A stretch of DNA of 59,689 nucleotides. Source: a bacterium. GTDB lineage: Bacteria > Actinomycetota > Coriobacteriia > Coriobacteriales > CADBOM01. A model generated the notes under the pieces. The model was not told where the DNA came from. It searched no databases and saw nothing but the letters and a program-made list of their open reading frames with translations. The translations under genes and the position numbers were made by a program. The stretch spans positions 1 through 59,689 of the forward strand of contig JAILQZ010000094.1 of the NCBI GenBank assembly GCA_024698685.1. Reading direction: 5' to 3'. Positions 3,699 to 54,768 of this stretch are shown here, one piece after another (the first letter of the stretch is position 1; the number at the start of each line of letters is the position of its first letter).

Positions 3699-4050
3699 CG
3701 CTGTTCCTTTCAATGCCAATCGAAGGGACATGCCAAGCGCATGATCCAGCTTAGAGCCCATAGCGAGCCCCTAAAGCTTCGATGCGAGCTTTCCGCATGC
3801 CACCCTAGATTGTAACCCTTAACGAAGCATCCCAACCTGCAAGACCTGCAAGATACGCCCCCGCAGTTCCATAAATTGTCTTTTTTTGCGATATGGCAGA
3901 CAGCTTCGCAAGCATGCGCCGAATGTCCAGCGCAAGCTCTCCGCTCTCGCACGAGCGAACTGCGCACATGGGTTTTAATGTTACATTTATAAGGTAGCGC
4001 GTTCTTTGACAACACGCGCAATCCTTGACACCGAACGCAAAAGGAAGAAG

Positions 4051-10799: not shown

Positions 10800-11996
10800 C
10801 TAATCGATGCTGATCTTCGCAGCGGCATCGGCTCTTTGCCTGCTCCAAACCGAGCAGATGATGCCGATGCAGAGGAAGTTCGAGATCATGAACGACGATC
10901 CGAAGCTGATGAAGGGAAGCGGAATGCCCGTGATGGGCATGAGACCGCAGCACATGCCGATGTTCTCGAAGATAGAGAAGAGCCACATCCCGACGACGCC
11001 GAGGATAATCAGCTTGCCAAAGAGGTCGTCGGTGCGCATCGCCATCGAGATCGCGATTCCGAGGAGAAGGCCGAAGAGGGCGATCAGCACGAAGACCCCA
11101 ACGAAGCCCATCTGCTCGGCGATGGTGCAGAAGACGAAGTCGGTAGGCGCCTCTGGCAGGAAGCCGAGCGCAGACTGAGTGGCGTTGCCGAGGCCCTTGC
11201 CGAGCAGGCCTCCCGAACCGATGGCGATCTTCGCCTGCTTGAGGTTGTAACCAGCACCAGTGGGGTCGGCATCCTCGTTGAGGAAGACGAGGATGCGATT
11301 GAGCTGGTAGTCCTTGAGGAAGACATCCTTGCCGGCGATGTTGTCGAGGATCGGGTCGGCGATGAAGACGAAGGCGATGAACGCCACCATCAGGCCTATC
11401 GTAATTAGCAGCAGCTTCTTGTTCGCCCCTCCCACGAAGATGATTGTCGCGCCGATGATGATGAGCACGAGGCCGGTGCCGAGGTCGGGCTGGGTCATGA
11501 TGCAGATGAATGGCACGCAGAGGAACCCGATGCACTTGAGGTATTCCTTCGGCGAATCGATGCGCCCCTGGTAGCGCGCGACCACGGCCGCCATCAGCAG
11601 GATCGTGACAAGCTTGGCAAGCTCGGCGGGCTGGAATCGGATGCCAATCTTGACCCACGAGGTCGCACCGCCGGCGGAGTAGCCGATTATGGGCAGGTGC
11701 GGCGAGAGGATGAGCACGACATCGATGATCAGCAGCGGGATGATCATGTGCTCGAAGATGCGGTAGTCGATCTTCCAGCAGACCGCCATGCCAACGATGC
11801 CGAGGCCGATGCCCATAGCCTGACGCATCAGCGAGTACTCCGTGCTGCCCGCGAGGACGTAGGAGAGGTTGAGGATGCCGAATATCAGCAGCGCCGCGAT
11901 AACGCCGAAGAAGGGCAGGTTGACCTTGCCGAGAATCGCAGAGATCCTGCTGGCGGAGGCGGTTTGCGCCTTCTCGATCTTCGGGGTCACAGCCAT
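10800..11996 (-). CDS. rodA: Rod shape-determining protein RodA (FtsW/RodA/SpoVE family)
   Basis: Multi-TM SEDS protein; GYSAGGATSWVKIG, GFLPEAPTDFVFCTIAEQMG; downstream of PBP2. Confidence 0.9.
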   Translation of the reverse strand: MAVTPKIEKAQTASASRISAILGKVNLPFFGVIAALLIFGILNLSYVLAGSTEYSLMRQAMGIGLGIVGMAVCWKIDYRIFEHMIIPLLIIDVVLILSPHLPIIGYSAGGATSWVKIGIRFQPAELAKLVTILLMAAVVARYQGRIDSPKEYLKCIGFLCVPFICIMTQPDLGTGLVLIIIGATIIFVGGANKKLLLITIGLMVAFIAFVFIADPILDNIAGKDVFLKDYQLNRILVFLNEDADPTGAGYNLKQAKIAIGSGGLLGKGLGNATQSALGFLPEAPTDFVFCTIAEQMGFVGVFVLIALFGLLLGIAISMAMRTDDLFGKLIILGVVGMWLFSIFENIGMCCGLMPITGIPLPFISFGSSFMISNFLCIGIICSVWSRQRADAAAKISID

Positions 11997-47946: not shown

Positions 47947-48136
47947 CTCCGCCCCTTCTCTTATCGACGCGTTTGCATAATTGTAGCCAATTATCGGGGA
48001 ATTGGGGATGGCAACCGCATGAGGGCGGGCAGTTGACAGCGCGGGCGCAGAAGTGTCAACATCAGGCGTGATGATCCGCTTGTGTTGATGGGCGCGCCAC
48101 GGGAAGACCGCATGGCTGCACATGCGAGGGGAAGAG

Positions 48137-49516
48137 ATGGCGAAGAAGAATTCAGCGTTGGTGACGAAGCTCTATCGCGCGCTCAGCGTCGTTCAGAGCT
48201 ATGCCATGGCGACCAAGATCAGCGCAATCGAGACAGCCAGCGCAATCGCAGGCGTGCTCGTCGGCGGCATCGAGATCTTCGCCAACCTCGGCGGCGACGC
48301 CTCCGAGTACTCCGGGCTGATCCTCATCGCATGCGGCATCGCGATCCTCGTCCCGTTCATCCGCGCCTTCGCGTCGATCAGGACGAGCCGCTTCGGCCAC
48401 ACCATCCAGAGCAGCAAGATGTACCACGACGACGTGCAGAGCCGCCTGAAGCTCAGCCCCAACTACATCGCCAACGGCTACGAGATCCGCGACTTCGTCG
48501 ACGGCGGCGTGACCGAGCGCTACGTCGCGAGCGACCTGGTCGACCGCAGCCTTATCCGCGGATCCTTCCACCCCGAGCAGGCCAACCCGCTGTACCTCGA
48601 CAAGGGCGGCTACAGCATCCCCGACGAGGTGCGCCCGCTGGCCATCGGCATCATCTCCACCATCCTGCGCAAGGGCAAATCGAAGCGCCTGACCAACGGC
48701 AAGCTCACGCGCCAGAGCACCGACCTGCTGCCCGAGGACCCGAGCTTCAAGACCTGCGTGGTGAACAAGGTGCGCTACTTCGACGGCCAGTGCACACACG
48801 AGATCGTCTACAAGCAGGCGCCGAGCAAGCGATCGATCGACGAGTGCTTCAAGGGCGAGGCGCTGCTGATGGACGAGAGCGGCGAGCTCATAGAGCTGTG
48901 GCGCAGCAGGTGCGCGAACTTCATGGGCGCCTCGACCATCGCGATCACTCGCGACCTCAAGCTCATCCTCAACGTGCAGGGCAAGCAGAGCATGGCCAAC
49001 GCGGGGCGCTGCGCCCCGTCGGGCTCGGGCTCGGTAGAGTTCTCCGACTGCACGCTGGTCTTGGGGCGGAGCGCCAACGCCATGCTGCCGGCGCTTATAA
49101 CCCAGGCGGCCGAGCGCGAGCTGCACGAGGAGTGCGCGCTGAAGCTCGGCAGCAGCAAGATGAGGAGCTACCTCATCGGCTACGCACGCCTGCTCGAGCG
49201 CGGCGGCAAGCCCGACTTCTTCTGCGTGACGTTCCTCGACATGAGCTCCCAGCAGCTCGTCAGCGAGTACCTCGGCAACATCTCCGCGGGCGAGATGGAC
49301 CTCGGCACCGTTCCTGATCCGGTCGACATCGCGGATCCCCTGCATCCCTCGCAGGCGCTTGCCAGGGCGCTCGCCAAACGCGCCGCGGACAACCCTGGCC
49401 AGCACTCCATCTCGATCCAGCTCCACATCCTCGTGCACAACCTCGAGCTCTTCGAGGCCACAGAGGAAGGCCGTGCGGCGCTGGCTCAGTGGGCCGAGAG
49501 CGGCCAGCTCGGCTAG
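48137..49516 (+). CDS. Predicted 2-TM membrane-anchored protein with C-terminal NUDIX-like domain
   Basis: TM pair (SAIAGVLVGGIEIFA / GLILIACGIAILVPFIRAF), then NUDIX-like ANAGRCAPSGSGSVEF...AAERELHEECALKLG (REL-x-EE present, final G replaced). Confidence 0.6.
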   Translation: MAKKNSALVTKLYRALSVVQSYAMATKISAIETASAIAGVLVGGIEIFANLGGDASEYSGLILIACGIAILVPFIRAFASIRTSRFGHTIQSSKMYHDDVQSRLKLSPNYIANGYEIRDFVDGGVTERYVASDLVDRSLIRGSFHPEQANPLYLDKGGYSIPDEVRPLAIGIISTILRKGKSKRLTNGKLTRQSTDLLPEDPSFKTCVVNKVRYFDGQCTHEIVYKQAPSKRSIDECFKGEALLMDESGELIELWRSRCANFMGASTIAITRDLKLILNVQGKQSMANAGRCAPSGSGSVEFSDCTLVLGRSANAMLPALITQAAERELHEECALKLGSSKMRSYLIGYARLLERGGKPDFFCVTFLDMSSQQLVSEYLGNISAGEMDLGTVPDPVDIADPLHPSQALARALAKRAADNPGQHSISIQLHILVHNLELFEATEEGRAALAQWAESGQLG

Positions 49517-49551
49517 CACGCGGCTGTTTCCCCGCATCGCCCAATTTCTGG

Positions 49552-49579
49552 TGCAATTATTTGCGATTGTGCACGATTT
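49552..49579 (+). repeat. Phased repeat copy 1
   Basis: TGCAATTATTTGCGATTGTGCACGATTT. Confidence 0.95.
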
Positions 49580-49601
49580 CGGCCATTTTCCGTCGACGCG
49601 A

Positions 49602-49629
49602 TGCAATTATTTGCGATTGTGCACGATTT
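49602..49629 (+). repeat. Phased repeat copy 2 (identical 28-mer exactly 50 bp after copy 1)
   Basis: TGCAATTATTTGCGATTGTGCACGATTT. Confidence 0.95.
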
Positions 49630-49719
49630 TTCGACGAGGTTTGGATTTCGCAAAAACAGACAACCCCTCTGACCTGCGGTTTTGCTGAAACAGATGCCGC
49701 TCTTTCGGATCGGCTCGCA

Positions 49720-49734
49720 AAAAATCGTGCACAA
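49720..49734 (-). repeat. Phased repeat copy 3, inverted, core only
   Basis: AAAAATCGTGCACAA, reverse complement TTGTGCACGATTTTT. Confidence 0.85.
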
Positions 49735-49770
49735 CTTGATATTTTTGCACTCGACCTGACGCAGAGTGCG

Positions 49771-49793
49771 AAAATCGTGCACAATCGCAAATT
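49771..49793 (-). repeat. Phased repeat copy 4, inverted, 50 bp after copy 3
   Basis: AAAATCGTGCACAATCGCAAATT, reverse complement AATTTGCGATTGTGCACGATTTT. Confidence 0.9.
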
Positions 49794-49908
49794 TTGGCAA
49801 CGGTTTCGTTACAACTCGGCTCTCGGAGACATCGGCGACATAAGATTCGAGCGCCGGCCTGCGCCAACGCCCGAATCGAATCGCTATTTTGCAATAATCT
49901 GCAGCCCC

Positions 49909-50970
49909 CTACCCCTTCTTCTTCCTGTTATAGGCCCACCTGCCCTCGGCGAGCCTCTGCATGACGTCCATGTAGCGGCGGCCCATGACGATCGAGGCGG
50001 TGCCGAGGATGAAGACGACGAAGTACTTGTTGAGGCGATGGTAGCGCTCGAAGGTGCAGTCGCAGCGCCAGATCAGACGGCATGCGTTGCCGTAGATTGG
50101 CACGATCTGCCAGTTCCAGGTCCAGCAGAAGCGGCGGAACCACAGCTTGAGCGCAGCCTCCTCATTCGGCCCGCGGTTCTTGTAGCCCAGGTCGGTTGCG
50201 GTGTCGGAGTGCGCAGCCCAGCCATATGGCGCCACGTCGGAAACCTCGGTCACCCATTCGCCAATCGTCAGCGGCGCCTGGTGGAACCACTGGAAATCGC
50301 CGACCTTGAGATTCTGCCACTCGGGATGGATGTCGTAGTGGTTATGGATCTTGAAGGTGAAGATGCGCTCGAGCCAATCGAAGCTGTACCAGCCGGCCTT
50401 GGTCTGACCAGACTGCTTGACGTACTTCCACACCTTGTCGGCAGGCGCGTCGATGGTGATGGCGGAGTCGTAGCGCAGGTGCTTCTCTCCGGGCTTGATC
50501 CAATCATCGCCGGGCATGACGCGCGCCTTCTCCTCGGGGGTCTGCTTGTAGCGCATGCCGTAGACCCACATGTCGCCGAGGATGATGAAGAGGATCGCGA
50601 CGACGAGGAAGAAGGTGCCCCAGCCGCTCGGCTGCGCGATGCCGATGATGGTGCCGGGCACCGCAAGCACAACGCCGTAGGAGCCGAGGAACACGCTCAG
50701 CCATCCGCAGACCACGAGCGAGAGGATGCTTGACGCCGGGCTGCACGCTCCCGTGCGGGTCAGGATGTACCAGAGAACCACGCCGGTCGCCCAGCCGATG
50801 ATTCCGAGGAAGATGCCCTCAGCCGAGCACTCCATCTGGCGTTTGCGATGCGCGATTCCCCAGCAGATGAACACGCCGATCCACCCGAGGCAGAATCCGA
50901 TGAGGATGAAGCCCAGCTCCTTCCAGCGCGAATAGCGATATCCGTCGCGCCTCTCTTCGTACAAGATCAT
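49909..50970 (-). CDS. Multi-TM protein with C-terminal SRPBCC/polyketide-cyclase-like domain
   Basis: N-terminal hydrophobic segments; YDSAITIDAPADKVWKYVKQSGQTKAGWYSFDWLERIF typical of SRPBCC domains. Confidence 0.7.
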   Translation of the reverse strand: MILYEERRDGYRYSRWKELGFILIGFCLGWIGVFICWGIAHRKRQMECSAEGIFLGIIGWATGVVLWYILTRTGACSPASSILSLVVCGWLSVFLGSYGVVLAVPGTIIGIAQPSGWGTFFLVVAILFIILGDMWVYGMRYKQTPEEKARVMPGDDWIKPGEKHLRYDSAITIDAPADKVWKYVKQSGQTKAGWYSFDWLERIFTFKIHNHYDIHPEWQNLKVGDFQWFHQAPLTIGEWVTEVSDVAPYGWAAHSDTATDLGYKNRGPNEEAALKLWFRRFCWTWNWQIVPIYGNACRLIWRCDCTFERYHRLNKYFVVFILGTASIVMGRRYMDVMQRLAEGRWAYNRKKKG

Positions 50971-51182
50971 GTCATTGCTCCGTTCAATTCCGTTGCAGCG
51001 TCCGCGCATTGCGAAACCCCGCGCACAGCTATCCATGCGGGCCTTCCATTATCGCACAGTTGTCCATCATTTTTCCAAAACGCGCCTTCATCATGCCGTG
51101 AAGAAAAAACCGCGCACGCGTGCCGATACAAGCGTAGAATCGAACTATCCGAATATGTGTGCTTTTCAGGAGGCGTTTCATC

Positions 51183-52718
51183 ATGTTTACCGAGAACATC
51201 TACAAGACGTATTACTGCGACGTCGCGGTGGTGGGCGGCGGAGTCGGCGGCTGCGCTGCGGCCATCGAGGCTGCCCGCAAAGGCATGCGCGTCACGCTCT
51301 TCGAAAAGGGCGTCTCGCTGGGAGGTCTGGCCACCAACGGATTCGTACCCTCAGTAGCGGGCAACATCGAGGGAATCGCCCTCGAGTTCGTGCGCAGACT
51401 CAAGGAGATCGGCCAAATCGACGACTCCTTCCGCGAGGACGGCTTCAGGAACGCCCTGTTCGAGCCCGAGTACGGAAAGATCGTCCTCGAGGATATGGTC
51501 TTTGAGGCCGGTTCGCGCATCGTCTACGACTCCACGCTGATCTATGCGGAGGTCGAGGGGCGCAATATCACCCGCGCCATCTTCTACACCAAGAGCGGAT
51601 ATATGGCCGTCAAGGCGAAGATCTTCATCGACGCCACGGGCGATGGCGACCTCGCTGCCCTAGCCGGGGTGCCATACGAGATTGGCGGGCAGGAGTTCGC
51701 AGGCCTCAACATCGCCTCCACGCTCGGCTCGCGCTGGGCAAACGTCAACCTGGTCAAGTACGCAGAAGCCAACTCCAAGTTCATGCAGGAGCAGAGGGAT
51801 AAGGGCATCGAGTATCCGCGCGAGCTAGCTGCGGCGCTGCAGGATGAAGCCATCGAGAAGGGCGAGCTCACCCGTCGCGTAGGCAGCAAGCGCATGTTCT
51901 TCAAACTGCCGCTTCCCAACACGCCGAAAGACAACGCGGACATCGTCACCTACGCCTTCCATAGCTACTACACCCACTGCACCGACCCGATCGACATCAC
52001 GCGCCAGGTGCTCGAGCAGCACCAGCTCATGAAGCAGTTCCATGCGTTCTTGAAGAAGTACGTACCCGGATACGAGAACGTGCGCCTCGTCGGCCTGGGC
52101 AACATCCCCGGCGCAAGAGAGTCGCGCCATGTGTTCGGCGAATACATGCTCAAGGGCTACGACATCGCCTGCGGCTCCAAGTTCGAGGACGGCATCGCGC
52201 GCTTCCCGGAGATGTTCGACGTGCACCATCCCACCAACGAGGACTGGTTCTTCATCAGGCACATCCACATCCCCGAGCCGGCAGGCTCCGCAGTGTGCGA
52301 GGAAGAGCATATCGGAGTCGACTGCGATGCCAAGATCCATCCCTTCGGAATCCCGGCGGGCGTTCCCGCGCGCTCGAACCCCCGCGACTACTGCGACATC
52401 CCCTATCGCTGCCTGCTCCCGCAGGAGATCGACAACATGCTCTGCGCGGGAAGGTGCTGCTCGGCCGACTTCCACGCCACCGGCGCCATGAGAATCATCG
52501 CGCCCGCGATGGGCACCGGCATGGCAGCGGGCCTCGCGGCTAGCATCGCGGTGAACGAGGACGTGCGCCCGCGCGACATCGATGGCGTCAGAATCCGCGA
52601 CCTGATGATAGCCGACGGCGTGCCGCTGGACGAGCCGCCAGCCGGCTATTGGAAGATCCTGCGCGAGAAGGACGGCGAGCTTCGCATCAATATGGGAGAT
52701 GCCATCTCGATCGTTTAG
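51183..52718 (+). CDS. FAD-dependent oxidoreductase (FAD_oxidored/PF12831-like), paralogue A
   Basis: CDVAVVGGGVGGCAAAIEAARKGMRVTLFEKG; IFIDATGDGDLAALAG; C-terminal FAD motif MRIIAPAMGTGMAAGLAASIA. Confidence 0.88.
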   Translation: MFTENIYKTYYCDVAVVGGGVGGCAAAIEAARKGMRVTLFEKGVSLGGLATNGFVPSVAGNIEGIALEFVRRLKEIGQIDDSFREDGFRNALFEPEYGKIVLEDMVFEAGSRIVYDSTLIYAEVEGRNITRAIFYTKSGYMAVKAKIFIDATGDGDLAALAGVPYEIGGQEFAGLNIASTLGSRWANVNLVKYAEANSKFMQEQRDKGIEYPRELAAALQDEAIEKGELTRRVGSKRMFFKLPLPNTPKDNADIVTYAFHSYYTHCTDPIDITRQVLEQHQLMKQFHAFLKKYVPGYENVRLVGLGNIPGARESRHVFGEYMLKGYDIACGSKFEDGIARFPEMFDVHHPTNEDWFFIRHIHIPEPAGSAVCEEEHIGVDCDAKIHPFGIPAGVPARSNPRDYCDIPYRCLLPQEIDNMLCAGRCCSADFHATGAMRIIAPAMGTGMAAGLAASIAVNEDVRPRDIDGVRIRDLMIADGVPLDEPPAGYWKILREKDGELRINMGDAISIV

Positions 52719-53232: not shown

Positions 53233-54768
53233 ATGCTTTCTGAGAATGTATACAAGACCTACTACTGCGACGTCGCGGTTGTTGGAGGCGGAACGGGCGG
53301 TTGCGCGGCGGCCATCGAGGCTGCCCGCAAGGGCATGCACGTCACGCTCTTCGAGAAGGGCGTCGCCCTGGGCGGCTTGGCCACATGCGGCTTCGTTCCC
53401 CAGATCGCGGGCAACATCGAGGGCATCGCGCTCGAGTTCGCGCAAAGGCTCCAGGAGATGGGCCAGCTTCTGAGCGCCTACGGCGACAAGTACCTGCGCA
53501 ACCCGCTTTTCGAGCCGGAGTACGGCAAGATCGCGCTCGAGGACATGGTGTTCGAGGCTGGCGCGCGCATCGTCTACGACTCCACGCTGATATACGCGGA
53601 GACCGAGGGCCGCAACATCATGCGGGCGATCTTCTACACCAAGAGCGGCTACATGGCCGTCAAGGCCAAGGTCTTCATCGACGCCACGGGCGACGGCGAC
53701 CTATCGGCGCTTGCCGGCGTGCCCTATGAGATCGGCGGCCAGGACTTCGCCGGGCTAAACATCGCGTCGACGATAGGCTCGCGTTGGGCCAATGTCAACC
53801 TGGTCAAGTACGAAGAGGAGAACGCGAAGTTCCTCGCGGAGCAGAAGGCGCAGGGCGTAGAGAGGCCAAGGGACCTCGTCTCGGCCCTGCAAGACGTCGC
53901 GCTGGAGAATGGCGAGCTCACGCAGCGCGTGGGCAGCAAGTTCAAGTTCTTCAAGCTGCAGCTTCCCAACACGCCGGAGGACAACGCGGACATCGTCACC
54001 TTCGCGTTCCACAGCTACTACTGCCACGCCACCGACCCGATCGACATCACGCGCCAGGTGCTCGAGCAGCACCAGCAGATGAAGCGCTTCCACGCCTTCC
54101 TCAAGAAGTACGTGCCCGGCTACGAGAACGTGCGGCTCGTCGGTATCGGCAGCCTGCCAGGCGCCAGGGAGTCAAGGCGCGTCTACGGCGAGTACATGCT
54201 CAAGGCTTCCGACGTGGCCTGCGGCACGAAGTTCGAGGACGGCATCGCGCGCTTTCCCGAGATGTTCGACACGCACCACCCCACTAACGGAGAATGGTTC
54301 TTCACCAGGCACGTGCATATCCCCGAGCCGGCTGGCTCGGCCGTGTGCGAGGAGGAGCACATCGGCATGAACTGCGATGCCGGGATGCATCCCTTCGGCG
54401 TGCCCGCAGGCATCCCCGCGCGCTCCAATCCGCGCGACTACTGCGACATCCCCTATCGTTGCCTGCTGCCACAGGAGATCGACAACATGCTCTGCGCTGG
54501 AAGGTGCTGCTCCTCCGAGTTCCACGCCAACGGAGCCATGAGGATCATCGCGCCCGCGATGGGCACCGGCATGGCCGCAGGACTCGCCGCGAGCATCGCC
54601 GTCAAGGAGGGCGTGCGCCCGAGGGACATCCCCGGCACCAGGGTTCGCGAGCTGATGATCGCCGACGGCGTGCCGCTGGACAAGGAGCCAGACGGTTACT
54701 GGGCGGAGCTTCGCGAGAAGGAGGGCGAGATCCACGTCAATTCGGGAGACTTCCTCGTGATCGAATAG
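53233..54768 (+). CDS. FAD-dependent oxidoreductase, paralogue B
   Basis: CDVAVVGGGTGGCAAAIEAARKGMHVTLFEKG; collinear and highly similar to paralogue A over its whole length. Confidence 0.88.
   Translation: MLSENVYKTYYCDVAVVGGGTGGCAAAIEAARKGMHVTLFEKGVALGGLATCGFVPQIAGNIEGIALEFAQRLQEMGQLLSAYGDKYLRNPLFEPEYGKIALEDMVFEAGARIVYDSTLIYAETEGRNIMRAIFYTKSGYMAVKAKVFIDATGDGDLSALAGVPYEIGGQDFAGLNIASTIGSRWANVNLVKYEEENAKFLAEQKAQGVERPRDLVSALQDVALENGELTQRVGSKFKFFKLQLPNTPEDNADIVTFAFHSYYCHATDPIDITRQVLEQHQQMKRFHAFLKKYVPGYENVRLVGIGSLPGARESRRVYGEYMLKASDVACGTKFEDGIARFPEMFDTHHPTNGEWFFTRHVHIPEPAGSAVCEEEHIGMNCDAGMHPFGVPAGIPARSNPRDYCDIPYRCLLPQEIDNMLCAGRCCSSEFHANGAMRIIAPAMGTGMAAGLAASIAVKEGVRPRDIPGTRVRELMIADGVPLDKEPDGYWAELREKEGEIHVNSGDFLVIE

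Follow-up and report, generated by a model that had tools for sequence, protein, structure and literature searches.

The window, that is, the whole stretch of 59,689 nucleotides that was analysed, comes from a gut bacterium of the order Coriobacteriales (genome G000), and it holds, between two convergent genes, an unannotated element of about 250 bp. Elements of this family carry up to four sites of ∼33 bp, two direct and two inverted, at intervals of 50, 106, and 50 bp, and the copies lie between genes. The parts and neighbours of the window copy are the following:

48122-49516, + strand: left flanking gene, 464 aa, no Pfam match, ending 35 bp before the element
49552-49799: whole element copy, four sites and centre (nhmmer and alignment)
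49552-49584, + strand: site (unit) 1, TGCAATTATTTGCGATTGTGCACGATTTCGGCC (sequence comparison)
49602-49634, + strand: site (unit) 2, 50 bp downstream of unit 1
49647-49691: constant centre, the TTCGCAAAAACAGACAACCCCTCTGACCTGCGGTTTTGCTGAAAC region; 25 copies compared in pairs average 85% identity
49666-49681, - strand: Actinomycetota-wide 16-mer AACCGCAGGTCAGAGG, within the centre
49717-49749, - strand: site (unit) 3, inverted
49767-49799, - strand: site (unit) 4, inverted, 50 bp from unit 3
49909-51036, - strand: right flanking gene, 375 aa, no Pfam match, 3' end towards the element

An earlier note on this DNA had already pointed to the identical 28-mer at 49552 and 49602, to the inverted cores starting at 49721 and 49771, and to the convergence of the flanking genes, and all of these are present. 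Two details had to be corrected: the positions 49569, 49619, 49727, and 49777, given as GTGCAC centres, are in fact GTGCAC starts, and the long form TTGCGATTGTGCACGATTT, claimed for the outer pair only, is common to copies 1, 2, and 4. With regard to the anatomy as a whole, the four repeats stand, while the 45-bp centre, the most conserved part of the element, had been overlooked. Terminal inverted repeats are present, formed by the inverted units 1 and 4, with arms of 28 nt that are 89% complementary. A 19-mer, allowing up to three mismatches, has 3 matches in the window versus 0 in 100 dinucleotide shuffles, and an nhmmer model built from 22 copies, the window copy itself included, matches positions 49550-49803 (E 1.8e-71). 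Further along the window, at 51183-52699 and 53233-54749, there are two tandem paralogues of an FAD-dependent oxidoreductase, with 81.7% DNA identity.

The array of the window is one of at least 23 copies. When the genome was searched with the unit, allowing up to three mismatches, dozens of matches were found versus five for the reversed pattern, and they group into arrays that share the design of the window array. The alignment of these arrays reveals the constant 45-bp centre between the inner sites, and a search with this centre gives 23 copies in this genome plus two in G001, the single congener compared (Coriobacteriales MAG RGIG5709, from sheep duodenum, incomplete). A profile search over 1.43 Mb of the 1.78-Mb genome again returned these 23 copies, to which it added one weak match and a remnant consisting of the centre only; isolated element ends did not turn up in these 1.43 Mb. 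The remnant, CTCTGACCTGCGGTTTTACTGG (L249:12000-12040, contig C69), abuts an apparent tRNA gene. The earlier note had taken uniqueness of the 28-mer in the genome as an argument against a dispersed extragenic element; related sites are found throughout the genome, and this hypothesis is supported by the 23 copies, polymorphic between congeners. A chance local duplication has practically no probability left: 25 copies share the same anatomy, and the shuffled expectation is 0.

The geometry of the element is strict. Counted from the centre, the starts of the site motifs are at -92, -42, +64, and +114, and all intervals lie within 1 bp of the mode across the 25 copies: unit 1 to unit 2 is 50 bp in 16 of 21 copies, and 49 or 51 bp in the others; unit 2 to centre is 42 bp in 24 of 25; centre to unit 3 is 64 bp in 23 of 25; and unit 3 to unit 4 is 50 bp in 17 of 21, the deviation never exceeding 1 bp. 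This 50/106/50 phase supports the phased site array that had also been proposed. The mean identity is 42% and 32% in the spacers between units, versus 85% in the centre; spacer length is kept though the sequence is nearly lost, and this is best read as selection on the phase. Unit 1, unit 4, or both are missing from some copies, and the units come in several subtypes (TTGTGCACGATT, TTTTGTACGATT, TTATGCGAAATT, and TAATGTGAAACT). Units within one copy, same-strand units included, tend to match in subtype; the copy of contig C23 is instead a mosaic. Variable ends and a conserved centre are the opposite of a REPIN, with its conserved palindromic ends and variable spacer.

Where do the copies lie? 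None was found inside the genes called with our own codon-usage gene caller. Among the 19 copies with both neighbours known, 11 lie between convergent genes, versus 12.6% of gene pairs (p 3.5e-6), and the weak point of these location counts is the caller, which is simple and home-made; it scored one of the 11 (C53:16.3k) as tandem, and this copy was reassigned manually with the help of the ORF list. The enrichment in convergent intergenic regions, which the earlier note had suggested looking for, is present. Most of the copies between tandem genes are closer to the end of the upstream gene, and the elements sit directly past gene 3' ends. An intrinsic terminator separates gene and element at 15 of 30 testable gene ends, and in contig C89 the element comes immediately after the T-run of the terminator. 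A role as terminator for the neighbours was considered and rejected, because many adjacent genes have intrinsic terminators of their own. A theme shared by the flanking genes was also discarded, since the neighbours are ordinary metabolic genes. Two cobalamin riboswitches (L013:2555-2783 and 3739-3962) are located near the C78 element.

The comparison with the congener adds another dimension. At six orthologous sites in G001, the element is missing from four and present in two. The empty sites (C94:11.8k, C89, C78:3.4k, and C36) have G000 flanks that align at about 91-96% on at least one side, and they are not clean at the single-base level because the intergenic DNA differs too. At C81:12.6k and C97:10.0k the element is in both species, with flanks 90-95% identical and units of another subtype, and at C97 its orientation is flipped between G000 and G001. 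On contig C99 of G001, an older GTGCAC-type unit is retained beside a newer element. Such empty or replaced sites mean that the gain, loss, or replacement of elements far outpaces change in the surrounding genes. Two copies can also enclose a gene: in contig C53 (L046:3903-5491), two copies in the same orientation (91.6% identity across 202 bp) stand on either side of a 336-aa gene that matches DUF559 weakly (E 0.049).

The unit pattern was searched in 300 other genomes of the order and found only in G001, G184, and G109. The G109 match sits in a different inverted repeat of 57 nt. G184 has one two-site version, with arms of 27 nt set 97 bp apart, and its congener G037 has another. Like the window element, both have inverted TGGCCAAAA..CGA.TT.TGC units, about 130-150 bp apart; unlike it, they have a single unit per arm, and the centre is different or absent. 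The situation is reversed in G014, from another Coriobacteriales family, which has the same AACCGCAGGTCAGAGG centre within inverted arms that differ from those of the window element and carry a single unit each. Its two copies (C10, at ∼64.6k and 66.7k; L380 and L389) are 244-bp inverted-repeat elements, 95.5% identical, with the motif at the centre, and they directly flank a GmrSD/HEC-05-like candidate defence gene. In G184, G037, and G014, one or two copies were seen per genome.

The centre leads well beyond the order. Its motif, AAAACCGCAGGTCAGAGG (window 49666-49681, - strand), recurs across Actinomycetota, and the 16-mer is exact in 12 of 158 other Actinomycetota genomes, at 15 sites, versus 0 for the reversed control. 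On our reading of the sequence, the sites include tRNA ends that adjoin tyrosine integrases, one border of a CRISPR array, and positions upstream of gyrB-like and carD-like genes. We know of no description of this motif, and text searches returned none. In a phage collection, a 30-nt query matched 919 records, mostly phages of Mycobacterium, Gordonia, and Streptomyces; the reversed query matched four. By our own count, the motif is at most 200 bp from the genome end in 43 of 60 evenly sampled phage rows, mostly on the + strand at the right end and on the - strand at the left end, and it is unannotated (loci include L370, L403, and L404). Both the record count and the end count are inflated by related phages. 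The motif string is present in the int-attP primer of Streptomyces phage phiJoe (PMC5311408). In IMG/VR the 26-nt core was not found, and a shorter core was. At L376 (G469 C30:10.1k), the first repeat of an apparent CRISPR array follows the motif by a few tens of bases.

Does the element act as RNA or as DNA? A structured non-coding RNA, that is, a long hairpin pairing unit 1 with 4 and unit 2 with 3, would agree with the strong folds of the window copy (-106.8 kcal/mol on one strand and -100.8 kcal/mol on the other, with z near -6.3) and with the 23 of 45 pairs predicted by RNAalifold that have two-sided changes. However, the two strands fold alike, as any inverted repeat would, and units 1-2 and 3-4, which are on the same strand and unable to pair, covary as strongly as 1-4 and 2-3, a result that speaks strongly against RNA. 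Positions with a 2:2 split of letters show no preference for the hairpin partners (6 versus 4 versus 0 in the motif, 15 versus 36 in the 5' part), T-runs of the left arm lie opposite T-runs of the right arm and break the helix, units 2 and 3 are mismatched in C23, and an Rfam search of the element gave no family match. A hairpin RNA is thus improbable. A protein array at the DNA level fits better: a protein reading all four sites explains the same-strand covariation, and shared subtype ancestry contributes to it. Of the three hypotheses of the earlier note, the dispersed element and the phased array are supported together, and the RNA is not favoured. It is very improbable that the element is a REPIN moved by a RAYT, or a classical MITE belonging to a DDE insertion sequence. 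The element is short, non-coding, and dispersed; like the RAYT-associated REP, BIME, and REPIN sequences, it is an extragenic inverted repeat with many copies near gene 3' ends, and like MITEs of the Correia, ERIC, and RUP type, it is in the range of ∼0.1-0.25 kb, with imperfect inverted repeats, and polymorphic between relatives. Yet its units are not hairpins, they follow a 50-bp phase with two sites per arm, and conservation peaks at the centre and falls at the ends. A target-site duplication was not found (mean longest flank repeat 1.52 versus 1.63 in shuffled pairings). As for a cognate transposase, whose presence the earlier note had proposed to check, Y1_Tnp (PF01797), the RAYT family, has 0 matches in G000, G001, G002, and G184, with the control genomes positive; no autonomous parent copy and no recent multi-copy insertion sequence were found in 1.43 Mb of the 1.78-Mb MAG; and there is no recombinase or transposase among 20 flanking proteins scanned.

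A BIME-like structural array would stay put and act locally, either as a platform to which a nucleoid protein or gyrase binds or by forming a bidirectional transcription boundary where convergent genes meet. The convergent enrichment, the position directly past gene ends, and the strict phase are all consistent with it. So is the placement of the centre motif elsewhere: several phages have it ∼20-25 bp past stop codons, and in a Corynebacterium plasmid-phage it adjoins a perfect terminator hairpin. We consider it unlikely, though not negligible, given the intrinsic terminators already at 15 of the 30 gene ends and the complete absence of the element at four of the six orthologous sites. Decidedly doubtful is an attachment-like site, in which arm-type sites around a core would let a site-specific recombinase exchange or insert gene cassettes. 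The arm-core-arm layout, with two units on each side of a constant centre, resembles the attP of phages with tyrosine integrases, where pairs of arm sites lie on either side of the core, and the motif adjoins tRNA and tyrosine integrase genes in other Actinomycetota; the C53 gene lies between two direct copies, and the GmrSD/HEC-05-like gene of G014 is flanked likewise, with different arms and the same motif. Unlike attP, however, the arms are symmetric, whole elements rather than split halves are dispersed, no integrase adjoins the copies examined, and no recombinase is tied to the element; the flanked genes number only two.

The explanation that we prefer, and to which we give about an even chance, is that of a non-autonomous, phased four-site DNA element, lineage-restricted and non-coding, that is dispersed by being moved in trans. 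The four ∼33-bp units would be putative binding sites for a DNA-binding protein, and two inverted pairs of them at a fixed phase would produce a symmetric protein-DNA assembly around the fixed 45-bp centre. Gained and lost as a unit, it would be mobile or recombine through factors acting in trans, and would survive where it is probably least harmful, directly past gene 3' ends. Both the binding of a protein to the units and a role of this protein in moving or recombining the element are inferred. Counting against this mobile site array are the missing target-site duplication, the lack of autonomous copies and isolated ends in the 1.43 Mb searched out of 1.78 Mb, and the stronger conservation of the centre than of the ends, where most transposons show the opposite; its weakest points are that the one congener compared is incomplete, that the assemblies are MAGs, and that the gene caller is home-made. 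A literature search found no paper on the element or the motif, and the family is previously undescribed. Twenty-five diverged copies keep the four-site geometry to within 1 bp, a constancy that calls for proteins assembled in phase, and with such a strict geometry the bound protein can be sought directly with a 250-bp bait.

The centre is what connects this small repeat of the chromosome with phages: hundreds of actinophage genomes have the same unannotated motif at their ends, and it also occurs next to integrases and a CRISPR array. With this link, the role of the motif across the phylum becomes testable. A speculative and rather unlikely extension is that AAAACCGCAGGTCAGAGG marks an unrecognised Actinomycetota-wide system, some recombination, packaging, or transcription-boundary machinery common to phages and chromosomes, and that the four-site elements would be chromosomal landing or assembly platforms around the motif, able to bring in genes flanked by two copies.

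A few other contexts of the motif can be mentioned. In the IMG/VR contigs L257, L260, L278, and L332, it lies between inverted CTGCCCACTTTT arms and TTTTTGGCCA repeats, and this arrangement is another arm type around the same centre. In Streptomyces sp. NRRL S-87 (L087), a 26-nt centre match adjoins TTGTCAGTGG, which we take to resemble the PafBC/RecA-ND promoter motif. Last, one phage contig has two 200-bp intergenic motif repeats, 86.5% identical and 8 kb apart (L269:2749-2948 and 10815-11013).
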